A DNA stretch of 10,593 bases from Bacilli bacterium. Its GTDB lineage: Bacteria; Bacillota_I; Bacilli_A; RF39; UBA660. Positions 227 through 10,362 of this stretch are shown here, piece by piece. The position numbers and the translations under genes are program-made. Every line of letters begins with the position of its first letter. Position 1 is the first letter of the stretch. Location: the NCBI GenBank assembly GCA_024683115.1, contig JAIKYM010000095.1, positions 1 to 10,593 on the forward strand, in the 5' to 3' direction. The notes below the pieces were generated by a model. That model did not search any database. It worked only from the letters and a program-made list of their open reading frames with translations, and had not been told where the DNA came from.

Positions 227-232
227 TAAGAT

Positions 233-433
233 ATATTTTTGTGGAGAAGACAAGTCTTTAATACTCCCTGTATAAAGAGAAGGCTAGTTGGTGGAAATGC
301 CTATACATATTATTAAAGGTAACAATTCTCGTTAACATAAAACGTTGCATGCGATAAATGTGAATTAAGTGTACTTAAGTAAAGCAAGATGGCACCGCGG
401 GGGAACTCGTTCTTGCAGACCTTAAGTTTTTTT
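233..433 (+). promoter_or_regulatory. T-box riboswitch leader, probably sensing tRNA-Asn
   Basis: The T-box core AAGATGGCACCGCGG lies at 386-400. It folds into a classic antiterminator: helix GCAAGA/TCTTGC (384-389 with 411-416), the seven-base bulge TGGCACC (390-396), then a short helix (397-401 with 406-410) capped by GGAA. Stem I is also visible. Its base pairs 244-248 with 326-330, a middle helix pairs 256-263 with 311-318, an upper helix pairs 270-274 with 302-306, and the apex has the AGAGA bulge (276-280) and GGTGGAA (290-296) elements. The loop between base and middle helix (319-325, GTAACAA) contains AAC, an Asn codon, at 321-323. The bulge base that pairs with the tRNA discriminator is C393, which suits G73 (Asn, Asp) and not the C73 of tRNA-His. 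The riboswitch identity is secure. The specifier is an inference from hand folding. Confidence 0.9.
374..433 (+). terminator. Putative T-box terminator stem and U-tract
   Basis: CTTAAG at 374-379 pairs with CTTAAG at 421-426, directly followed by a run of seven T and, after one G, five more T. Inside it, GCAAGA/TCTTGC can pair as well, with a 4x4 internal loop between the two helices. A competing small hairpin (365-369 with 374-378) could hold the 5' arm away. The platform is unusual because the inner helix is also the antiterminator helix. A translational mechanism, with CCTT (420-423) masking AAGG (441-444) of the hisS ribosome binding site, is an alternative. Confidence 0.5.
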
Positions 434-454: not shown

Positions 455-1705
455 ATGATAACTAAACAAAAAGGAACATATGACATCTATGGAGATTTAG
501 CAAAAAAGAGAATGTATGTTAATGATGTATTAAATGCATTATGTGAAAAATTTAACTATGGTTATATTGAAACACCAGTATTTGAGGCTTCTGAATTATT
601 CCACAGAGGTGTTGGTGAAACAACTGATATGGTACAAAAGGAAACATATGATTTTGTTGATCGTGGAGAAAGAAATATAACACTTAGACCAGAAGGAACA
701 GCAGGTGTTGTTAGATGGTTTATTGAAAATAAGTTATATGGTAATTTAACTGATGCTGTAAAAGTATACTACAACATGAAGATGTATAGATATGAAAGAC
801 CTCAAAGTGGAAGAAATAGAGAATTTACTCAATGGGGATTTGAAGTATTTGGGCCAGATACTGTTGAAAGTGATGCTGAAGTAGTTTCTTTAGCTTACAA
901 TGCATATAGATTATTAGGTTTAGATGATGTTAAGATTCAATTAAATTCATTAGGTGATACTGAATCACGTATGAAATATAGAGAAGCTTTAATTAATTAT
1001 TTTGAACCATATATAAATGATTTATGTGAAGATTGCCAAGAAAGATTTAAGAAAAATCCATTAAGAATATTAGATTGTAAGGTAGATGCAGGTTCAGATA
1101 TTATTAAGAATGCACCTAAAACAATTGATTATTTAAATGAAGAATCTAAAAAGAGATTTGAAAGATTACAAGAATTATTAGATTTAATGGATATTCCTTA
1201 TGAAGTTAATACTAACTTAGTTAGAGGATTAGATTATTATAACCACATGGTATTTGAAGTAACTTTAAGAGATTCATATGCATTAGGTGGAGGAGGTCGT
1301 TACAACGGTCTTATTGAAACATTAGATGGACCATCTACACCAGGTGTTGGTTTTGCTATGGGTTATGATAGAACAATCTTAGCTATGGAGGAAGAAGGAG
1401 TAAATATTCCAATTAATAATAAAATTGATTTATATTTACTTGCTGTATCTGAATCAGAAAGAGAAACTGCTCAATACTTAGCTCAAGATTTAAGATTAAA
1501 CGGATTTATTGTTGAAACAGACCTTATGAATAAAGGTTTAAAAGGACAATTCAAATCTGTTGATAGATTTAATTCTAAATTCTTAATCGTATTAAATGAT
1601 GAAGATTTACAAAAAAATGAAGTAGTATTAAAAGATAATGCTACTAAAGAAGAAACAAGAGTAAATATTAATAATATAGTAGAGTTCTTAGATACTCATA
1701 TGTAG
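455..1705 (+). CDS. hisS: Histidyl-tRNA synthetase (HisRS)
   Basis: HisRS activates histidine with ATP and loads it on tRNA-His in the cytoplasm, normally as a class IIa homodimer. The 416 residues fit the usual length of about 420. Visible signatures are LRPEGTAG (77-84), motif 2 with YRYERPQSGRNREF (111-124), the histidine-specific loops LVRGLDYYN (255-263) and GGGGRYNGL (278-286), motif 3 GVGFAMGYDR (297-306), and a C-terminal anticodon-binding domain from about residue 325. CEDC at 191-194 with C208 occupies the insertion domain, as in other Bacillota HisRS. The ATG at 455 is chosen because AAAGGAG (440-446) sits 8 bases upstream. An in-frame ATG at 389 lies inside the T-box core and would add 22 unrelated residues. 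It is the first gene of the operon, although the leader does not appear to read a His codon. Confidence 0.97.
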   Translation: MITKQKGTYDIYGDLAKKRMYVNDVLNALCEKFNYGYIETPVFEASELFHRGVGETTDMVQKETYDFVDRGERNITLRPEGTAGVVRWFIENKLYGNLTDAVKVYYNMKMYRYERPQSGRNREFTQWGFEVFGPDTVESDAEVVSLAYNAYRLLGLDDVKIQLNSLGDTESRMKYREALINYFEPYINDLCEDCQERFKKNPLRILDCKVDAGSDIIKNAPKTIDYLNEESKKRFERLQELLDLMDIPYEVNTNLVRGLDYYNHMVFEVTLRDSYALGGGGRYNGLIETLDGPSTPGVGFAMGYDRTILAMEEEGVNIPINNKIDLYLLAVSESERETAQYLAQDLRLNGFIVETDLMNKGLKGQFKSVDRFNSKFLIVLNDEDLQKNEVVLKDNATKEETRVNINNIVEFLDTHM

Positions 1706-1716
1706 GAGGTTATCTT

Positions 1717-3477
1717 ATGAAGAAAGTTTATAATGAAACAATTAATATTGAATCAGTTGGTAAGACTGTTACTTTAGCTGGATGGGTAGCAAAAAAAAGA
1801 GACTTAGGTGGTTTAATATTTATTGATTTAAGAGATAGAACAGGAATAATTCAAATTGTAGTTAATCCTGAGAATAAAAATTATGATATAGCTAATTCAT
1901 TAAAGAATGAATATGTTATTGAAGTAACTGGTAAAGTAGTTGAAAGAAGTAATAAAAATCCAAATCTTAAGACAGGTGATATTGAAATTGAAGTTGATAC
2001 ATTAGAAATATTAAATACATGTGATGAACTTCCATTCCCAATTGTAGATGATGTTAATACTTCTGAAGATAATAGATTAAAATATAGATATCTAGATATT
2101 AGAAGAAATAAATTAAAAGAAAACTTATTCTTAAGAAATGAAGTATTACATTATTTAAGAAATAAAATGTATGATTTAGGATTTACTGAAGTTCAAACTC
2201 CAATTTTAACTGCATCATCACCAGAAGGTGCAAGAGACTTTGTAGTTCCTTCACGTGTATATCCAGGTAAGTTCTATGCATTACCTCAAGCCCCACAAAT
2301 CTATAAAGAATTATTAATGGTTGGTGGTTTTGAAAGATATTTCCAAATAGCTCCATGTTTTAGAGATGAAGATCCAAGAGCTGATAGAACACTAGAATTC
2401 TATCAATTAGACTTAGAAATGTCTTTTGTTGATGAAGATGATGTATTAGCTGTAGGTGAAGAAATATTCTATGATACTTTTACTAAGTTTAGTAATAAGA
2501 AGGTAAGTCCAAGACCATTTAGAAGAATTTCTTACAATGATGCTATTGATCAATATGGTTCAGATAAACCAGATATTAGATTTGAAATGACTATTCAAGA
2601 TATTACAGAAGTATTTAAAGATACAGAGTTTGCTGTATTTAAGAATGTAATTGATGAAAAGGGTATTATCAATGCTATAGTAGCTAAGAATGCTGCTGAT
2701 AAATTCTCACGTAAGAATTTAGATGAATTAACTGATTTTGTAAAGAGTAAGAAAGCATCAGGATTAGCTTATTTAAAGATTGAAGAAGAATTATCAGGAT
2801 CTATTGCTAAAGTTGTTACTGAAAGTGAAGTAAGTGCTTTAAAAGAACAATTATCATTAGAAAACAATGATTTAGTTTTAATCATTTGTGGGAATAAAAA
2901 GATTGTTAAAAATGCTTTAGGACAATTAAGATTAAAAGTAGCTGATACTTTAGGATTAATTGATAATGATAGATTAGAGTTATGTATAGTTAATGACTTT
3001 CCAATGTTTGAATGGGATGAAAATAATGAGAAGTGGGATTTCTGCCACAATCCATTTAGTTTACCTCATGGTGGAGTTCATGCTTATGATAATCTAGATA
3101 ATATTGAAGATATCTTAGCATATCAATTCGACTTTGTTTGTAATGGTAATGAAATGGCTTCTGGTGCAATAAGAAACCATGACTTAGATTCATTAGCTAA
3201 GGGATTTGAAATAGTTGGATACCCTAGAGAAGAAGTTGAAAAGAGATTTAGATCTATATTTACTTCATTTAGATATGGTTGTCCTCCACATGGAGGTATG
3301 GCTCCTGGATTAGATAGAATTCTTATGTTAATCAAGGATGAACCAAATCTAAGAGAAGTACAAGCGTTCCCACCAAGTGCATCTGCACAAGATTTAATGA
3401 TGGGTTCACCTTCTGAATTAATGCCTGAACAATTAGAAGAATTAGGTATTATAGTTAAACCAAAAGAAGATAAGTAG
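1717..3477 (+). CDS. aspS: Aspartyl-tRNA synthetase 1, bacterial type, probably discriminating
   Basis: This enzyme loads aspartate on tRNA-Asp. The 586 residues contain, in order, an N-terminal OB-fold anticodon domain (about 1-105), the class IIb catalytic core with LPQAPQ (189-194) and motif 2 FRDEDPRADR (215-224), the bacterial GAD insertion (about 290-415), and motif 3 GMAPGLDRILML (527-538). Forms such as EFYQLD (227-232), HNPFSLPHGG (444-453) and ASGAIRNH (481-488) recall a bacterial AspRS subtype common in alphaproteobacteria. Leu30 in KKRDLGG and Lys80 match the pair seen in AspRS that charge only tRNA-Asp (E. coli Leu30 and Lys81). Its ribosome binding site AGGAGG (1704-1709) overlaps the hisS stop, 7 bases before ATG, suggesting translational coupling. 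Specificity is inferred from these residues only. Confidence 0.95.
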   Translation: MKKVYNETINIESVGKTVTLAGWVAKKRDLGGLIFIDLRDRTGIIQIVVNPENKNYDIANSLKNEYVIEVTGKVVERSNKNPNLKTGDIEIEVDTLEILNTCDELPFPIVDDVNTSEDNRLKYRYLDIRRNKLKENLFLRNEVLHYLRNKMYDLGFTEVQTPILTASSPEGARDFVVPSRVYPGKFYALPQAPQIYKELLMVGGFERYFQIAPCFRDEDPRADRTLEFYQLDLEMSFVDEDDVLAVGEEIFYDTFTKFSNKKVSPRPFRRISYNDAIDQYGSDKPDIRFEMTIQDITEVFKDTEFAVFKNVIDEKGIINAIVAKNAADKFSRKNLDELTDFVKSKKASGLAYLKIEEELSGSIAKVVTESEVSALKEQLSLENNDLVLIICGNKKIVKNALGQLRLKVADTLGLIDNDRLELCIVNDFPMFEWDENNEKWDFCHNPFSLPHGGVHAYDNLDNIEDILAYQFDFVCNGNEMASGAIRNHDLDSLAKGFEIVGYPREEVEKRFRSIFTSFRYGCPPHGGMAPGLDRILMLIKDEPNLREVQAFPPSASAQDLMMGSPSELMPEQLEELGIIVKPKEDK

Positions 3478-3485
3478 GAGTATAT

Positions 3486-4853
3486 ATGGATTTAATCGAT
3501 GTATTTAAGAATAAAAAAATAGGTGATGAAGTTACTCTTGAAGGTTGGGTTAGAAATAATCGTGATCAAAAAGAATTTGGTTTTATCGACTTTTATGATG
3601 GAACTTCAATCAATACTATTCAAGTAGTTTATGATAAAGATTTATCTAACTTTGATGAAGTAGCTAAAATATTAGCTGGTACTTCAATTATTGTTGAAGG
3701 TAAGTTAGTTGAATCAAATGGTAAACAAGATTATGAAGTAAAACCAAGTAAAATTGAAATAGTTGGAGATTGTCCAGCAGACTATCCAATTCAACCAAAA
3801 AGACATACAATGGAATTCTTAAGAAGCCAAGCGTACTTAAGACCAAGAACAAAAACATTCCAAGCTGTATTTAAGATAAGATCAGTTGCTGCACAAGCAA
3901 TACATTCTTATTTCCAATCAAATAATTATGTTTATGTTCATACTCCATTGTTAACAACTGCTGATTGTGAAGGATCAGATCAAATGTTTAAAGTTACTAC
4001 TTTAAATATGAATGATGTACCTAAGAAAGACGGAGCAGTTGATTATAGCCAAGATTTATTTGGTAAACAAACATATATAACTGGTTCAGGCCAATTACAT
4101 GGTGAAACTTTTGCCATGGCATTTAAGAAGATTTATACATTTGGACCAACATTTAGAACAGAAAATTCAAATACTAAAACTCATGCCAATGAATTCTGGA
4201 TGATTGAACCAGAAATGGCTTTCATGCATTTAGATGATTTAATGAATGTAGAAGAAGAAATGTTAAAGTATGTTGTTAAAGATGTATTAGATAAATGTAG
4301 AAGCGAATTAGAATTCTTAGATCAATTTGTTCAAAAAGGATTAATTGATAAATTAACTAAGTTAGTTGATTCTAATTTCGTTAAGATTACACATAAAGAA
4401 GCTATTGATTTATTATTAGCTTCAGGAGAAAAATGGGAATTTACTCCTGACTATGAATCAGATATAGCTAAAGAACATGAAAAATGGATAACTGAACACT
4501 TTAATTCACCAGTATTCATATATAACTGGCCTAAAGATATCAAGGCTTGGTATATGAAGTTAAATGATGATGGAAAGACAGTCGCTGCTGTTGATCTTGA
4601 AGTACCTGGTTCTGGTGAACTTATGGGTGGATCAGAAAGAGAAGTTGACTTAGATAAGTTAGAAGAACTTATTAAGAAACATAATGTAGATAGAGAACAA
4701 ATTGAATGGTATATCAACTTAAGAAAGTTTGGTGGATGTTATCATTCAGGATTTGGTATGGGATTTGAACGTTTGATTATGTACCTAACAGGTATTGAGA
4801 ATATTAGAGATGTTATTCCATATCCTAGAACACCAGGTAACTGTGATTATTAA
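3486..4853 (+). CDS. asnS: Asparaginyl-tRNA synthetase (AsnRS)
   Basis: AsnRS loads asparagine directly on tRNA-Asn. The 455 residues comprise an N-terminal OB-fold anticodon domain (about 1-105) and a class IIb catalytic domain without a GAD insertion. This, together with GSGQLHGE (200-207), separates it from the two AspRS genes on either side. Motif 2 is FGPTFRTENSNTKTH (219-233) followed by EFWMIEPE (236-243). Motif 3 is GFGMGFERLIM (422-432), and the protein ends in the family hallmark PRTPGNCDY (447-455). The ribosome binding site TAGGAG (3475-3480) overlaps the stop codon of the upstream aspS, with 5 bases before the ATG. Three class IIb synthetase genes thus stand in a row. With AsnRS present, the GatCAB route to Asn-tRNA further down is formally redundant. 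Confidence 0.96.
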   Translation: MDLIDVFKNKKIGDEVTLEGWVRNNRDQKEFGFIDFYDGTSINTIQVVYDKDLSNFDEVAKILAGTSIIVEGKLVESNGKQDYEVKPSKIEIVGDCPADYPIQPKRHTMEFLRSQAYLRPRTKTFQAVFKIRSVAAQAIHSYFQSNNYVYVHTPLLTTADCEGSDQMFKVTTLNMNDVPKKDGAVDYSQDLFGKQTYITGSGQLHGETFAMAFKKIYTFGPTFRTENSNTKTHANEFWMIEPEMAFMHLDDLMNVEEEMLKYVVKDVLDKCRSELEFLDQFVQKGLIDKLTKLVDSNFVKITHKEAIDLLLASGEKWEFTPDYESDIAKEHEKWITEHFNSPVFIYNWPKDIKAWYMKLNDDGKTVAAVDLEVPGSGELMGGSEREVDLDKLEELIKKHNVDREQIEWYINLRKFGGCYHSGFGMGFERLIMYLTGIENIRDVIPYPRTPGNCDY

Positions 4854-4859
4854 AAATAG

Positions 4860-4865
4860 AAAGGG
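4860..4865 (+). promoter_or_regulatory. Ribosome binding site that decides the second aspS start
   Basis: AAAGGG lies 9 bases before ATG 4875 but directly abuts an in-frame TTG at 4866. The ATG is therefore the better start. This site is weaker than the AGGAGG sites of the other operon genes, and the 21-base gap between asnS and this gene is the longest inside the operon. Confidence 0.6.
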
Positions 4866-4874
4866 TTGATTAAG

Positions 4875-6620
4875 ATGAATATTTATAGAACTCATCTTAT
4901 TAAAGATTTATCAGCCGACATAAAAGACGAAATAGTAGTTTCTGGATGGGTTGAAAACATAAGAGACCATGGTGGAGTATTATTCCTAGATTTAAGAGAT
5001 CATACAGGAATACTTCAAACTGTATCTAACGATGATAATATGTTTAAAGGATTAGCTAAAGAATCAGTAGTTAGATTACATGGTAAAATTAGAAAAAGAG
5101 ATGAAGATACTTTCAATGATAAGATTGTATCAGGTGATATTGAATTAGTTGTTGATAAATTAGATGTATTAGGTGAATCATTACATGAATTACCATTTGA
5201 TATTAGAACATCTAAAACAGTTAAAGACGACGTAAGATTAAAATATAGATATCTAGATATGAGAAATGATAAGGTAAAAGATAATCTTATATTAAGAAGT
5301 AAAGTATTACATTTCTTAAGAAATAAAATGTATGATTTAGGTTTTGATGAAGTACAAACTCCAATTTTAACTGCATCATCACCAGAGGGAGCAAGAGATT
5401 TCGTTGTTCCATCTCGTTTATTTAAAGGAAAATTCTATGCATTACCTCAAGCACCACAAATCTATAAAGAATTATTAATGGTAGGTGGATTTAATAAGTA
5501 TTTCCAAATAGCACCATGTTTTAGAGATGAAGATGCAAGAGCTGATAGAACATTGGAATTCTATCAATTAGACTTAGAAATGAGTTTTGTTGAAGAAGAC
5601 GATGTATTAGCTATAGGTGAAGATATTTTCTATTCAGTATTTAAAGAGTTTAGTGATAAGGAAGTTTCTAAACCACCATTTAGAAGAATAGCATATACTG
5701 ATGCTATGGAAATGTATGGTTTAGATAAACCAGATTTAAGAAACCCTTTGATTATTAAAGATGCGAGCGTTGTATTAAAGAATACTGAATTTGGACCATT
5801 TAAGAAGAGTGTAATTAAAGTAATAGTAGCTGATGATATTGGTGAAAATTCTAACTCTTGGTTTAATGAAATTGTTGATTTTGCATCATCAATTGGTATG
5901 CCAGGTATTGGATATATTACACTTATGGAAGATGGCTCTTTAAAAGGACCTATTGATAAATTCTTATCTGACGAAGAAAGAAAGAACTTAATAGAACAAT
6001 TTGATATGAAGACAAACTCAGTTATGTTCTTCATAGCTAACAAAAACTTAAAGACTGCACAAAAGTTTGCAGGTCAAATAAGAAACTATGTTGGTGAAAA
6101 GATGGGATTAATTGATAAGAATAAACTAGAATTATGTATTATCAAAGATTTCCCAATGTTTGAATATAAAGATGATGAAAAGAAGTGGGATTTCTGTCAT
6201 AACCCATTTAGTTTACCTCATGGAGGAATTAAAGATTATGAAGAAAAAGAACCTGGTGATATTTTAGCTTACCAATTCGACTTTGTTTGTAATGGTAATG
6301 AAATGGCTTCAGGTGCAATAAGAAACCACGATATCAATTCATTAATTAAGGGATTTGAAATTGTTGGATATACTAAAGAAGAAGTTGAAGAAAGATTTAA
6401 ATCACTAATGACAGCATTTAAATATGGTTGTCCTCCACATGGTGGTATGGCTCCTGGTATTGATAGAATTCTTATGTTAATTAAGGATGAACCAAACCTA
6501 AGAGAAGTACAAGCATTCCCACCATCTGCATCTGGACAAGACTTAATGATGGGGTCACCTTCAACATTAACTACACAACAATTAAGGGAATTAGGTATTA
6601 AGATTAAGGAGGAAGAATAA
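4875..6620 (+). CDS. aspS2: Aspartyl-tRNA synthetase 2, bacterial type, probably non-discriminating (Asp/Asn)
   Basis: This paralogue of the upstream AspRS (581 residues from ATG 4875) has the same layout: OB-fold anticodon domain (about 1-107), LPQAPQ (190-195), motif 2 FRDEDARADR (216-225), a GAD insertion (about 291-413), and motif 3 GMAPGIDRILML (524-535). All catalytic motifs look intact, so it should be active. The anticodon domain reads NIRDHGG with His32, and Asp78 stands where the upstream copy has Lys80. His at this place and absence of Lys are features of bacterial non-discriminating AspRS such as the Pseudomonas aeruginosa enzyme, which charges both tRNA-Asp and tRNA-Asn. Its position directly before gatC, one base away, fits the role of making Asp-tRNA-Asn for GatCAB to amidate. 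The specificity is inference; AspRS identity is firm. Confidence 0.94.
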   Translation: MNIYRTHLIKDLSADIKDEIVVSGWVENIRDHGGVLFLDLRDHTGILQTVSNDDNMFKGLAKESVVRLHGKIRKRDEDTFNDKIVSGDIELVVDKLDVLGESLHELPFDIRTSKTVKDDVRLKYRYLDMRNDKVKDNLILRSKVLHFLRNKMYDLGFDEVQTPILTASSPEGARDFVVPSRLFKGKFYALPQAPQIYKELLMVGGFNKYFQIAPCFRDEDARADRTLEFYQLDLEMSFVEEDDVLAIGEDIFYSVFKEFSDKEVSKPPFRRIAYTDAMEMYGLDKPDLRNPLIIKDASVVLKNTEFGPFKKSVIKVIVADDIGENSNSWFNEIVDFASSIGMPGIGYITLMEDGSLKGPIDKFLSDEERKNLIEQFDMKTNSVMFFIANKNLKTAQKFAGQIRNYVGEKMGLIDKNKLELCIIKDFPMFEYKDDEKKWDFCHNPFSLPHGGIKDYEEKEPGDILAYQFDFVCNGNEMASGAIRNHDINSLIKGFEIVGYTKEEVEERFKSLMTAFKYGCPPHGGMAPGIDRILMLIKDEPNLREVQAFPPSASGQDLMMGSPSTLTTQQLRELGIKIKEEE

Positions 6621-6621
6621 T

Positions 6622-6915
6622 ATGGAATTTAATGAACAAACTATTGATAAATTAGCTGATTTATTAATGATAGGTCTAACTCCTGAAGAAAATAAAATGG
6701 TTTTAGATGAATTTGAAGTAATTGATAAAAATATAAATAAAATAAATAATATTGAAGGTATTGATAAAGCTGTTCCTATGACTCATGCTTTAGATGATTT
6801 TGAATGTGAGTTAAGAGAAGATGTAGCTGAAGAATCACCTTCTATAGAAGAATTACTATCTAACTGTGATTTTAAAGATGGTAGAGAAGTAGAAGTACCA
6901 AAGGTGGTGGAGTAA
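6622..6915 (+). CDS. gatC: Asp-tRNA(Asn)/Glu-tRNA(Gln) amidotransferase subunit C
   Basis: GatC is the small belt-like subunit that wraps GatA and GatB together in the tRNA-dependent amidotransferase. The 97 residues match the family in size and layout. An N-terminal helical half (about 1-47) carries the LADLLMIGLTPEE start. An acidic linker follows, then LREDVAEESPSIEELLSNC (64-82) and a C-terminal VEVPKVVE corresponding to the usual phi-x-VPxV tail. Sequence conservation in GatC is always low, so the call leans on the tail, the length and the position before gatA and gatB. AAGGAGG (6606-6612) lies inside the end of the second aspS, 9 bases before the ATG, and only one base separates the two genes. 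Confidence 0.92.
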   Translation: MEFNEQTIDKLADLLMIGLTPEENKMVLDEFEVIDKNINKINNIEGIDKAVPMTHALDDFECELREDVAEESPSIEELLSNCDFKDGREVEVPKVVE

Positions 6916-6916
6916 T

Positions 6917-8368
6917 ATGATGGATAAGACTATAGTAAAATTACATGAAGAACTTAAAAATAACAAAGTTACTTCAGATGAATTAGTTAAAGAATCATTA
7001 GAAAAATCACATGAAGTACAAGAAAAATGTAATGCTTTCGTTACAATTATTGATGATGCTAAAGGTACTGAAGTAACTGATGATTTATTATCAGGTATTC
7101 CATTTGGTATTAAAGATAATTATTCAACTAAAGGAATCTTATCGACTGGATCATCTAATACATTAAAGGATTATGTTCCATTCTTTACTGCAACTGCAAT
7201 AGAGAATTTAACTAAACATGGATGTGTTCCAGTTAATAAAACAGCAATGGATGAATTTGGTATGGGTGGAACTGGTACAACAGGTCATACTGGTGTACAA
7301 AAGAATCCTTGGGATACTACTCGTATGTGTGCTGGATCTTCATCAGGTTCTGCTGCTGCTGTAGCTGCTGGTGTTTATCCATTTGCTACAGGTTCAGATA
7401 CTGGTGATTCAATAAGAAAACCTGCTGCTTTCTGTGGTATTGTAGGATATAAACCAACATATGGTATGATTTCAAGATATGGTTTATTTGCTTTCGCATC
7501 ATCATTAGATACATGTGGTGTTTTAACAAGAAGTGTTGAAGATGCTGCTATCGTTGTTGATGCAATGAAGGGTAAAGATCCTAAAGATATGACATCTTGG
7601 GATTCATCAAATATAAATTTATATAAAGATTTAAATAAAGATATTAAAGGTAAGAAATTATTCTATATCAAAGAAATTGTTGATAAGTCTAACTATAAGA
7701 ACTTACCAGAAGAAACTGAAAAACATTTAGATAATTTTATGGCTACATTAGATAGGTTAAAAGAATTGGGTGCAGAAGTTGAAGCTGTATCTATTGATCA
7801 AAACTTACTTAATGCTATAGCATCAACTTATGTAGTATTATCATGTGCTGAAGCTACATCTAATATGTCTAACTTAACAGGTTTCATCTTTGGACCTCGT
7901 GGAGAAGGAAATACTTACCAAGAACAAATGAAGGATCACAGAACTAAAGGATTCTCATCATTAATTAAGAGAAGATTTATAATTGGTTCATATGTATTAC
8001 AAGCATGTAATCAAGATAGATATTTCAAGAATGCTCAAAGAGCTAGAAGATTAATTGTTGATGCAATTAAAGAACAATTCAAGAAATATGATGGATTAAT
8101 TATGCCTGTAGGTACTGGTGTAGCACCTAAGATAGATGGAACAGATAAAGTAACTGATGATGAATTAACACCATTAGATGAACACTTACAAATAGGTAAC
8201 TTTGGTGGATTCCCATCAATTACAATACCTAATGGATTCATTGATGGTTTACCAGTAGGTGTTAATATTACAGGTAACTGTTATGATGATCAAAATGTAT
8301 TAAATATTGCTTATGCCTTAGAATCATCTATGGATTATAAGAATCAAATAGCTAAGGAGGTAAAGTAA
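6917..8368 (+). CDS. gatA: Asp-tRNA(Asn)/Glu-tRNA(Gln) amidotransferase subunit A (glutaminase)
   Basis: GatA is the amidase-signature subunit that frees ammonia from glutamine and passes it to GatB. In this 483-residue protein the Ser-cisSer-Lys triad is recognisable as Lys66 (GIKDN), Ser141 (AGSSSGSAAA) and Ser165 (GSDTGDSIRKPA). The 99-residue Lys-to-Ser and 24-residue Ser-to-Ser spacings equal those of Staphylococcus aureus GatA (79, 154, 178). Two positions differ from the usual signature: SSGGS reads SSSGS (Ser143), and TGGSIR reads TGDSIR (Asp164, next to the nucleophile in the oxyanion-hole region). I believe the latter also occurs in some Mollicutes and Clostridia GatA, so activity is likely kept. 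ATG 6917 or ATG 6920 could start translation; GGTGGTGGAG (6903-6912) gives a spacing of 4 or 7. One base separates it from gatC. Confidence 0.96.
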   Translation: MMDKTIVKLHEELKNNKVTSDELVKESLEKSHEVQEKCNAFVTIIDDAKGTEVTDDLLSGIPFGIKDNYSTKGILSTGSSNTLKDYVPFFTATAIENLTKHGCVPVNKTAMDEFGMGGTGTTGHTGVQKNPWDTTRMCAGSSSGSAAAVAAGVYPFATGSDTGDSIRKPAAFCGIVGYKPTYGMISRYGLFAFASSLDTCGVLTRSVEDAAIVVDAMKGKDPKDMTSWDSSNINLYKDLNKDIKGKKLFYIKEIVDKSNYKNLPEETEKHLDNFMATLDRLKELGAEVEAVSIDQNLLNAIASTYVVLSCAEATSNMSNLTGFIFGPRGEGNTYQEQMKDHRTKGFSSLIKRRFIIGSYVLQACNQDRYFKNAQRARRLIVDAIKEQFKKYDGLIMPVGTGVAPKIDGTDKVTDDELTPLDEHLQIGNFGGFPSITIPNGFIDGLPVGVNITGNCYDDQNVLNIAYALESSMDYKNQIAKEVK

Positions 8369-8369
8369 T

Positions 8370-9818
8370 ATGGGTAAATATTATGTAACAATTGGTTTAG
8401 AGATGCACTGTGAAGGTTCTGAAACAAACTCTAAAGTGTTCTCATCAGGTAGAAATGAATATACTGAAGAATCTAATTCAAATATATCTCCAGTAGATAT
8501 GGCATTTCCAGGTATACTTCCTGTAGTTAATAAAAAAGCAGTAGAACAATCTATAATGATGGCTTCTATCTTACATGCAAGAATACCTGAATATATGTAT
8601 TTTGAAAGAAAGAACTATTATTATCCAGATTTACCTAAAGGATATCAATTAACTCAAAATCCACCAGAAGAATGTGTTGGTAATGGTGGTTATATAGATA
8701 TTGAAAGAGAAGATGGTTCAACATTCAGAGTAGAAATTGATAATCTACACTTAGAAGAAGATGCTGCTCAATCAACACACTTATATGATACATCTACAAT
8801 TAACTATAATAGAGCTGGTGTACCATTATTTGAACTTGTTACAACTCCATGTCTACATTCTGCAGATGATGCTGTAACTTATTTAGAGTACATTAGAGCC
8901 ATTTATCAATACTGTGGTATATCTGAAGCTGATAGTAAAAAAGGACAAATCAGATGCGACGTAAACGTATCTATAAGTGATGATCCAAATACATTAGGTA
9001 CTAAAGTTGAAATTAAGAATGTTAACTCATTCTCTGCAGTAAGAGATGCAATTAACTATGAAATTCAAAGACAATCAGATCTTAAGGATGATGGAAGATA
9101 TGATGAAGAAGTAGAACAAGAAACAAGAAGATGGGATGAAGCATCTATGAAGACTGTTCACATGAGATTTAAAGTAGATGCAATAGATTATAAGTATTTT
9201 GTTGAACCAAATATTCCTAGATTTAAATTAGATGAAAAATGGGTTAAAGAAATACAAGAATCTATTCCTGAATTACCATATGAAAGAAAAGAAAAATACA
9301 TGAACGAGTTAGGTTTATCTTCATATGATGCAGGTATAATTATTAAAGAAAAACCAACTGCTGATTATTTTGAAAAGTGTGTAGAATTAGGTGTTGATCC
9401 TAAGACTGCTGCTAACTGGTTATGTACTCAAATACTTGGTTATTTATATCAAGAAGAATTAAATATTCAAGATTTATATTTAACTCCTGAATATTTAAAA
9501 CAAATAACTGATGCTATTAAAGATGGTTCTATTTCATCTAAACAAGCTAAAGATGTATTTGCTAAAACTTTAGAAGAAAAAGAAGAACCTAATACAATAA
9601 TGGAAAAATATTCAATTAAACAAATGTCTGACGATGGTGCTTTACTTGATATTGTTATTAAAGTATTAGATAACTCTGAATCACAAATTAACCAATATAA
9701 AGATGGTCAAACAAACTTATTTAACTATTTTGTTGGTCAAGTAATGAAAGAAACTAAAGGACAAGCAAATCCAGTTAGATTAAAAGAATTATTAGATCAA
9801 GAATTAGCTAAGAGATAA
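8370..9818 (+). CDS. gatB: Asp-tRNA(Asn)/Glu-tRNA(Gln) amidotransferase subunit B
   Basis: GatB binds the mischarged tRNA, phosphorylates its Asp or Glu side chain with ATP and adds the ammonia delivered from GatA. The 482 residues show GLEMH (9-13; usually GLEVH), FERKNYYYPDLPKGYQ (78-93), LHLEEDAAQSTH (126-137), NRAGVPLFELVT (147-158), RCDVNVSI (195-202), EIKNVNSF (214-221) and EQETRRWDEA (249-258). A C-terminal helical/YqeY tail ends in KGQANP...LDQELAKR. The CxC and CPVC cysteines present in many GatB proteins are missing, as they are in S. aureus. The usual YRYFPEP reads YKYFVEP (274-280). AAGGAGG (8354-8360) inside gatA precedes the ATG by 9 bases. The stop codon sits in the loop of the operon terminator. 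Confidence 0.96.
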   Translation: MGKYYVTIGLEMHCEGSETNSKVFSSGRNEYTEESNSNISPVDMAFPGILPVVNKKAVEQSIMMASILHARIPEYMYFERKNYYYPDLPKGYQLTQNPPEECVGNGGYIDIEREDGSTFRVEIDNLHLEEDAAQSTHLYDTSTINYNRAGVPLFELVTTPCLHSADDAVTYLEYIRAIYQYCGISEADSKKGQIRCDVNVSISDDPNTLGTKVEIKNVNSFSAVRDAINYEIQRQSDLKDDGRYDEEVEQETRRWDEASMKTVHMRFKVDAIDYKYFVEPNIPRFKLDEKWVKEIQESIPELPYERKEKYMNELGLSSYDAGIIIKEKPTADYFEKCVELGVDPKTAANWLCTQILGYLYQEELNIQDLYLTPEYLKQITDAIKDGSISSKQAKDVFAKTLEEKEEPNTIMEKYSIKQMSDDGALLDIVIKVLDNSESQINQYKDGQTNLFNYFVGQVMKETKGQANPVRLKELLDQELAKR

Positions 9819-9861: not shown

Positions 9862-10362
9862 ATGTTAGCTATAATTGTTGCAAGATCAAAAAATAATGTT
9901 ATAGGTAAAGATGGATGTATTCCTTGGAGAATAAAAGGAGAACAAAAACAATTTAAGGAATTAACAACTAACAATGTTGTTATCATGGGAAGAAAAACAT
10001 ATGAGGATATAGGACATCCTCTACCTAATAGATTAAATATTGTTATATCATCTACAGTTAACTATGAAGGAGAAAATCTAATAACAGTTAAAAGTTTACA
10101 AGAAGCTTTAGAATATACAGATGGAAAAGATGTATATGTTGCAGGTGGCTTTGGTGTATTTAAAGAAGCTATTCCATATGTTGATAAAATGTATATTACT
10201 GAAGTAGATATGGAAGTTGAAAATGGAACTACATTTTTTCCTGAGTTTAATGAAGATGAATTTGATAAAGAAGAAGGCGAAATCCTTGGAGACGAAATAA
10301 AATTCCAAAGAGTAATATATAGTAGAAAAAGAGGAGAAGAAACTAGATCTAAGAGTATCTAG
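9862..10362 (+). CDS. folA: Dihydrofolate reductase
   Basis: The enzyme reduces dihydrofolate to tetrahydrofolate with NADPH, feeding thymidylate, purine and formyl-Met-tRNA synthesis. The 166 residues fit the family (about 160). Visible features are VIGKDGCIPW (13-22), the acidic catalytic residue as Glu27 in IKGEQKQFK (24-32), VIMGRKTYEDIG (40-51), PLPNRLNIVIS (53-63) with Arg57, the cofactor loop VYVAGG (91-96), and YITEVD (111-116) with Thr113. Glu in place of the usual Asp27, within a KGEQ or GEQK context, is the pattern of mobile DfrA-type trimethoprim-resistant reductases and of some clostridial chromosomal enzymes. It is a single-gene unit with its own promoter and terminator, and no thyA is next to it. 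Base use matches the neighbours, so there is no sign of recent transfer. Trimethoprim sensitivity cannot be read from sequence alone. Confidence 0.94.
   Translation: MLAIIVARSKNNVIGKDGCIPWRIKGEQKQFKELTTNNVVIMGRKTYEDIGHPLPNRLNIVISSTVNYEGENLITVKSLQEALEYTDGKDVYVAGGFGVFKEAIPYVDKMYITEVDMEVENGTTFFPEFNEDEFDKEEGEILGDEIKFQRVIYSRKRGEETRSKSI

Follow-up and report, generated by a model that had tools for sequence, protein, structure and literature searches.

Which tRNA does each of two aspartyl-tRNA synthetases (AspRS) serve when both are encoded in the same operon, and how did such a pair arise? The question is raised by a 10,593-nt contig of a Bacilli bacterium (assembly GCA_024683115.1, contig JAIKYM010000095.1), hereafter the window, on which the order is T-box leader, hisS, aspS1, asnS, aspS2, gatC, gatA, gatB and then a dihydrofolate reductase (DHFR) gene. 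It comes, as contig 176 of 180, from a genome (G000) that totals 1,040,720 bases and is 87.83% complete. The initial annotation, made from the sequence alone, had seen in it two AspRS genes (copy 1, aspS1; copy 2, aspS2) with opposite specificity residues, and was silent on the asparaginyl-tRNA synthetase (AsnRS) gene asnS between them, on the amidotransferase genes gatCAB after the second copy and on the T-box before hisS. The reading that we favour, and hold to be likely, is that of a tRNAAsn-controlled operon carrying both routes to Asn-tRNAAsn, in which aspS1, a mosaic gene, would serve tRNAAsp and aspS2, together with GatCAB, tRNAAsn.

Domain structure of aspS1

Both copies are of the bacterial type, as first described: their TIGR00459 scores are above the cut-off of 373.85 bits, the OB-fold, class II core and GAD domains are present in each (Pfam), and the invariant residues of the class II motifs are in place. 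Over the whole gene they are 60% identical, with 41% identity in the anticodon-binding domain and hinge, 81% in the first part of the catalytic core, 35% in the GAD region and 76% in the second part of the core. To place these segments, three lineages were labelled by hand: T, the ordinary AspRS of the family; alpha-H, the lineage of aspS2; and alpha-L, its Leu-bearing sister lineage. In 20-residue windows, copy 1 was T-like to about residue 130, alpha-H-like to about 275, T-like again to about 411 and alpha-H-like beyond, with little T/alpha-H difference from about residue 90 within the first segment and none in the last few residues. Since the Pfam GAD match spans residues 308-401, the break points lie close to domain borders.

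The trees tell the same two histories. For the tRNA-reading modules (anticodon-binding and GAD domains), six copy-1 homologues grouped with 10 T enzymes (support 96), whereas for the core they fell within alpha-H (support 99), near the alpha-H enzymes of genomes G118 and G123 (support 91); they formed one clade in both (support 99 for the modules, 89 for the core). Approximately unbiased (AU) tests were run by segment, with 7 of the 84 rows omitted (six long-branched ones and RUG10929) and the flagged row Alpha_L045 kept. Placing copy 1 within alpha-H was rejected for the anticodon-binding domain (p-AU 0.0047, 90.5 log units) and for GAD (p-AU 2.1e-5, 109.3 log units), as was placing it within T for core part 1 (p-AU 8.8e-8, 148.7 log units) and core part 2 (p-AU 4.6e-5, 234.3 log units); the subclades were picked once the trees were known, so that these p-values are optimistic. 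A looser form of the test, in which copy 1 and T, or copy 1 and alpha, had only to lie on one side of a branch, gave no rejection (p 0.085 to 0.475) and is uninformative because copy 1 can then join the long branch that separates the groups. For the modules, the clade of copy 1 with the 10 T enzymes could not be rejected (p 0.49 and 0.62), and single-domain trees do not show it. The alpha-L lineage, suspected of swapped cores from a split in the free core tree, was tested on the same rows and set aside as a candidate: the tree with alpha-L kept together was 25.6 log units better (p-AU 0.79).

On these comparisons aspS1 is a natural domain mosaic, with an alpha-H-like catalytic core and T-like anticodon-binding and GAD domains. 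The four-segment pattern was found in all 120 copy-1 homologues listed (82-100% identical, the window's own copies included), and the mosaic appears, as far as the data show, to be of single origin. No fixed difference was found in 300 core columns between the six copy-1 rows and 13 near alpha-H rows. Ongoing gene conversion between the copies was not found either: the core identity of pairs from one genome (0.789 to 0.873) was not consistently above that of cross-pairs. A literature search, with subscription journals mostly outside its coverage, returned no report of a mosaic AspRS.

Such a structure is hard to reconcile with the origin proposed at first, a tandem duplication of one bacterial AspRS after which copy 2 lost discrimination. 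The copies do look like sisters over the whole gene, where their identity exceeds that of copy 2 with T-type AspRS (about 40%), because the catalytic core is shared. But the identity jumps at domain borders, the AU tests reject copy 1 with alpha-H in the modules and with T in the core, and alpha-H occurs without copy 1 in 32 of the 34 genomes with alpha-H in our family survey (117 genomes of 116 genera, evenly drawn from a larger group). Distant clades, named in the initial annotation as a refuting outcome, are what the two copies show in their tRNA-reading modules, though not in the core, and we consider duplication extremely improbable.

The slot after hisS, held by copy 1 in the window, is occupied at other loci by T, archaeal-type or alpha-L enzymes. 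As copy 1 sits in this hisS-linked slot, the resident T gene is taken to have received an alpha-H core, and we infer that the transfer went in that direction: an ordinary AspRS would have kept its anticodon-binding and GAD domains and taken the core of an aspS2-type gene. In one genome of the survey (G021) a T-type AspRS gene directly precedes an alpha-H gene, and a mosaic of this kind could arise from that gene order.

Specificity residues and the T-box leader

In bacterial AspRS, a Leu/Lys pair in the anticodon-binding domain goes with discriminating enzymes and a His/Gly pair with non-discriminating ones. The residues given for the window, Leu30 and Lys80 in copy 1 and His32 and Asp78 in copy 2 (counted from ATG 4875), proved exact. 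When the copies were aligned with structures of known enzymes, copy 1 fell in with the Leu/Lys kind: its residues match L30 and K81 of E. coli, and the Leu is shared with structures 1c0a/1eqr and 1efw, which we take to be E. coli AspRS and Thermus AspRS-1. For copy 2 the match was half: its His is matched by a His in chains 4wj3, 4o2d and 5gro (presumably P. aeruginosa, M. smegmatis and H. pylori), but Asp stands at the second site, which is Gly in 4wj3 and 4o2d. Leu and Lys are invariant among the 120 best-listed copy-1 homologues, and so is His among the 120 best-listed copy-2 homologues, in which the second site is Gly (90), Asp (24), Glu (5) or Ala (1); the window's own copies, and many sequences closely related to them, are counted in both sets. 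The likeness of the alpha-H enzymes to the non-discriminating AspRS of P. aeruginosa, H. pylori and M. smegmatis therefore lies in the His at the Leu30 position and in the Gly of most copy-2 relatives. They differ from these by the Asp of copy 2 and by a Lys or Arg at the position of E. coli N84 in 29 of 34 alpha-H rows; moreover, the three enzymes are described as charging both tRNAs, while in the surveyed family alpha-H is always accompanied by another AspRS.

A second line of evidence comes from the leader. An Rfam search of the window at the gathering threshold gave no T-box; a permissive RF00230 search on 401 bases did. At the permissive threshold a T-box was found in 21 of 25 hand-chosen loci, the window included; among the 24 relatives' loci it was present in 20, with 49.7-151.1 bits and seven over the gathering score. 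Specifiers were read by eye from the RF00230 alignments and compared with relatives. The specifier was AAC (Asn) in 15 of the 16 alpha-H loci scanned (the window and 14 others) and GAC (Asp) in the four readable loci without alpha-H (L092, L118, L124 and L178; L184 was unreadable). The four loci in which no T-box was found at the permissive threshold (L189, L098, L091 and L100) are all without alpha-H. The UGGC bulge of the window leader matches G73 of tRNAAsn and tRNAAsp and not C73 of tRNAHis, the latter taken from G118. Against shuffled sequences, the minimum free energy fold of this leader had no advantage (162 of 200 shuffles at least as stable). From the specifier and its distribution, the window T-box probably responds to tRNAAsn.

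The alpha-H lineage and the proposed amidation route

Detections in the 117 surveyed genomes were 76 for bacterial AspRS, 57 for archaeal-type AspRS, 81 for AsnRS, 112 for GatB and 48 for AsnB-type asparagine synthetase. No AspRS at all was detected in seven genomes, an illustration of how incomplete such assemblies may be. When residues were read, AspRS under 500 aa were excluded; the alpha-H fragments of G021 and G091 were labelled by identity to aspS2, their His not being read. Alpha-H was present in 34 genomes and was the sole AspRS in none, its partner being archaeal-type in 21, T in 11 and the mosaic in two. The other kinds do occur alone: T is the only AspRS detected in 31 of its 44 genomes, the archaeal type in 34 of 57, alpha-L in all 8 that have it and the mosaic in one of three (G126, 89% complete). 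In the window genome, no archaeal-type AspRS was found (TIGR00458, E 1e-85, 87.83% completeness). AsnRS went undetected in 21 of the 34 alpha-H genomes versus 15 of the 83 others (Fisher 1.3e-5, uncorrected for kinship), and in 18 of 28 versus 6 of 63 at a completeness of at least 90% (Fisher 1.6e-7, again uncorrected). The window genome is among the 13 alpha-H genomes that have AsnRS. Two genomes, G010 (of the same genus) and G118 (three contigs, searched whole), have the order aspS1-aspS2-gatCAB and no detected AsnRS. The records with close loci are mainly uncultured Bacilli, plus one Tenericutes and one Erysipelotrichaceae metagenome-assembled genome (MAG); the order is probably RF39.

Other AspRS states were met on the way. 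One genus (g1) includes members with T alone, with the archaeal type, with mosaic and alpha-H, and with alpha-H and the archaeal type, so that synthetase turnover there looks very high. Two proteobacterial MAGs (L045 and L046) have an alpha-H-like enzyme (51% and 45% identical) as sole bacterial-type AspRS, with no AsnRS detected, and such enzymes are a possible source lineage. At two loci (L091 of G060 and L075 of G130), both from genomes in which AsnRS was not detected, gatC is directly preceded by a T-type AspRS that has Met at position 30 and an insert of two residues; it is possibly a second, independent non-discriminating AspRS.

Where the flanks were long enough, alpha-H adjoins gatCAB at most loci. 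One layout runs hisS, partner, asnS (not always present), alpha-H, gatCAB; the other begins with gatCAB and continues with asnS, again optional, and alpha-H. In the window, gatCAB directly follows aspS2. Of 42 alpha-H loci, 9 have a tRNA-Asn gene within 4 kb; the figure is 0 of 44 for T, 0 of 8 for alpha-L, 0 of 4 for the mosaic and 1 of 57 for the archaeal type, that single locus also holding alpha-H; the flank scanned was unequal (281 kb for alpha-H, 166 kb for T, 223 kb for the archaeal type). No tRNA-Asn gene was found in the window itself. In a 70-row GatB tree, a 12-row clade held 9 of the 16 GatBs from genomes without alpha-H and 3 of 4 second copies, and no GatB from any alpha-H locus. 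The other seven of the 16 sit among the alpha-H-linked GatBs, so that GatB type alone does not predict alpha-H. Four genomes (G074, G093, G110 and G119) have two GatB genes each, one of them alpha-H-linked; in three the other belongs to the separate clade.

Could aspS2 load Asn rather than Asp, being a second, bacterial-type AsnRS derived from AspRS? That alpha-H is never the sole AspRS and occurs mainly where AsnRS is undetected would fit, and so would a tRNAAsn with G1-C72 (see below), which should block GatCAB. The active site speaks for Asp. In E. coli AspRS, Q195, K198, D233, H448 and R489 have an Asp-binding role; their equivalents are kept in 6/6 copy-1, 34/34 alpha-H and 10/10 alpha-L rows, and in the 84-row alignment they, together with those of R217 and R537, do not vary among the aspS1, alpha-H, alpha-L and T rows. 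By its residues, the Asp site is retained in both copies, and this, with the core that aspS2 shares with copy 1, argues against an AsnRS. Moreover, the mosaic, whose core has no fixed difference from that of near alpha-H enzymes, is the only AspRS detected in G126, and two proteobacterial genomes with the same core (G152 and G153) have neither another bacterial-type AspRS nor a detected AsnRS, the archaeal type not having been searched there. We regard an Asn-loading aspS2 as very unlikely.

The tRNAs themselves were less accommodating. A pattern search in 15 chosen genomes recovered tRNA-Asn in 11, and the remaining rows came from loci taken for AspRS or GatB, so that the genomes are no random sample. 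According to parts of a review, U1-A72 confers, and G1-C72 and U20a prevent, the amidation of bacterial Asp-tRNAAsn (PMC9976931). All 21 genomes read, G000 and 12 genomes without detected AsnRS included, have G1-C72 in tRNA-Asn, and U1-A72, the expected amidation signal, was met in none; tRNA-Gln has U1-A72 in the five genomes read. The antideterminant U20a is absent in the 15 alpha-H genomes read, among them G000 as well as G129 and G136, whose tRNA-Asn has an odd nine-base D-loop, and also in G060 and G047. It is present in four of the six genomes without alpha-H (G011, G042, G053 and G061), all with AsnRS. Among the 11 genomes of the pattern search, it was found in 0 of 7 with alpha-H or without AsnRS and in 4 of 4 others. 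Unless G1-C72 is accepted by GatCAB here, the amidation route does not work in the way proposed.

A rival reading is that GatCAB makes Gln-tRNAGln only, aspS2 being a redundant or vestigial AspRS and Asn-tRNAAsn coming from AsnRS alone. No GlnRS was detected in the 117 family genomes (E 1e-40), so that Gln-tRNA formation requires GatCAB regardless; the first base pairs of tRNAGln and tRNAAsn are those expected on this reading, and the window genome has AsnRS and one AsnB-type match. It would then be odd that alpha-H lies beside gatCAB and sometimes tRNA-Asn, that its operons mostly read AAC, that AsnRS is undetected in most genomes that have it and that no GatB from its loci belongs to the separate clade (though 7 of 16 GatBs without alpha-H are of the linked kind). 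A Gln-only GatCAB thus seems unlikely, if less so than an Asn-loading aspS2.

We therefore return to the operon with both routes. In it, uncharged tRNAAsn would switch on the T-box through its AAC specifier; AsnRS would load free Asn onto tRNAAsn; aspS2 would load Asp onto the same tRNA for GatCAB to amidate; GatCAB would act for tRNAGln as well, no GlnRS having been detected; and aspS1 would supply Asp-tRNAAsp. The active site would be common to both AspRS, the difference lying in the domains by which tRNA and partner proteins are recognised. Opposite specificities, as first claimed, are predicted by comparison, from gatCAB, the Asn T-box and the AsnRS-poor lineage on one side and the Leu/Lys-type domains of copy 1 on the other. 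The mosaic, the gene order, the T-box match, the active-site identity and the genome associations can be read from the sequences; the division of labour between aspS1 and aspS2 appears well supported, and both tRNA specificities and amidation in vivo are what we would expect.

Several points weigh against this reading. The window T-box scores below the gathering score of 93 bits (Table 1), and its specifier loop is without the usual GAA before the codon; at one locus (L041 of G148), whose operon combines alpha-L with asnS, alpha-H and gatCAB, the T-box reads GAC. Copy 2 has Asp instead of Gly at its second specificity site. The genomes in the Fisher tests are related, hence not independent, and incompleteness (G000 itself, in 180 contigs) makes absences soft: in G118, 21 tRNAs were found, none for Asp. 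With AsnRS and an AsnB-type match in G000, the amidation route is not strictly needed there. Above all, tRNA-Asn carries G1-C72, while part of a published survey gives U1-A72 for 186 of 186 genera with GatCAB only (PMC4206432).

That alpha-H is never the sole AspRS gives reason to ask whether aspS2 charges tRNAAsn alone. One may then think of a split Asp/Asn system, with one core and exchangeable tRNA-reading modules, in which aspS2 would be tRNAAsn-only and GatCAB independent of U1-A72, specificity being secured by the dedicated synthetase and the loss of U20a; mixed aspS1:aspS2 dimers may even form through the shared core. The never-alone pattern is suggestive of such a dedicated enzyme, comparable to GluRS2 (see below), and we see this extension as possible while leaning against it.

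The operon and comparison with known systems

The features of the window are collected in Table 1. The longest hisS open reading frame begins at 389, inside the T-box, and a start there would add 22 residues. The alternative start of aspS2, TTG 4866, gives 584 aa. There is little doubt about gatC and gatA, from gene order, despite their sub-cut-off scores. The gene after gatB (9862-10362) has DfrF as best NCBIfam match (244 bits, under the cut-off of 320) and is probably an ordinary chromosomal DHFR.

Table 1. Coordinates of the leader, genes and aspS1 segments in the window
Feature	Position	Strand	Remarks
T-box leader	230..417	+	5' of hisS; Rfam RF00230, 58 bits, E 3.2e-12
hisS, histidyl-tRNA synthetase	455..1705	+	TIGR00442, 454.7 bits; likely start ATG 455
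aspS1, mosaic AspRS, 586 aa, predicted discriminating	1717..3477	+	TIGR00459, 637.8 bits
aspS1 anticodon-binding domain and hinge, aa 1 to ~130, T-like; Leu30, Lys80	1717..2106	+	
aspS1 catalytic core part 1, aa ~131-275, alpha-H-like	2107..2541	+	
aspS1 GAD insertion region, aa ~276-411, T-like	2542..2949	+	Pfam GAD 308-401
aspS1 catalytic core part 2, aa ~412-586, alpha-H-like	2950..3477	+	
asnS, asparaginyl-tRNA synthetase, between the AspRS copies	3486..4853	+	TIGR00457, 554.9 bits
aspS2, alpha-H AspRS, 581 aa from ATG, predicted to charge tRNA-Asn	4875..6620	+	His32, Asp78; TIGR00459, 575.5 bits (TTG version)
gatC	6622..6915	+	TIGR00135, 42.0 bits, under cut-off 47.1; position supports
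gatA	6917..8368	+	best match TIGR00132, 432 bits, under cut-off 481.1; position supports
gatB	8370..9818	+	TIGR00133, 496.4 bits, and NF004012, 548.3 bits; both above cut-off

The closest known arrangement is that of C. acetobutylicum, in which, as reportedly described by Saad et al. in 2012, an extra AspRS and GatCAB are encoded in one T-box operon for tRNAAsn. The window shares with it the extra AspRS with GatCAB, the tRNAAsn T-box (predicted here) and a Firmicute host with other AspRS genes; unlike it, the window operon adds hisS, asnS and a mosaic AspRS predicted to be discriminating. This comparison is one of gene content. According to the parts of the survey mentioned above that deal with these enzymes, an extra AspRS is rare in bacteria, with 15 genera beyond Deinococcus-Thermus, and C. 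acetobutylicum, which has three AspRS, has a transamidation operon cited there as under T-box control (PMC4206432). In all 15 genera tRNAAsn has U1-A72, against the G1-C72 found here.

In Thermus and Deinococcus, the second AspRS is non-discriminating (parts of PMC6523644) and, as the initial annotation had stated, archaeal-type (parts of PMC4206432); a second AspRS outside these genera was already published. The likeness to the window is in one discriminating and one tRNAAsn-charging AspRS (as predicted here) with AsnRS and GatCAB; the difference is that both AspRS of the window are bacterial-type. In the 21 alpha-H genomes whose partner is archaeal-type, the latter would, by its position, be the discriminating one, the reverse of Thermus.

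GluRS, a class I synthetase, offers a further parallel in the tRNAGln-only GluRS2 of H. pylori and its relatives, like aspS2 (as predicted here) a second synthetase for an amidation route. Parts of one paper propose that GluRS2 is chimeric, its catalytic and anticodon-binding domains stemming from different lineages (PMC3927822), and a domain chimera of two lineages is what is seen here. There, however, the chimera is the dedicated enzyme; here it would be the ordinary partner, and tRNAAsn-only charging by aspS2 is hypothetical.

If the favoured reading is true, what does the operon mean for Asp/Asn decoding in this family? Where AsnRS is undetected, a tRNAAsn with G1-C72 calls into question the rule by which U1-A72 is required for bacterial GatCAB. 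The two AspRS would represent a natural domain swap, in which near-identical cores carry different anticodon-binding and GAD modules and probably make opposite tRNA choices within one operon. The pair would then provide a direct test of whether the anticodon-binding and GAD modules suffice for Asp/Asn specificity.

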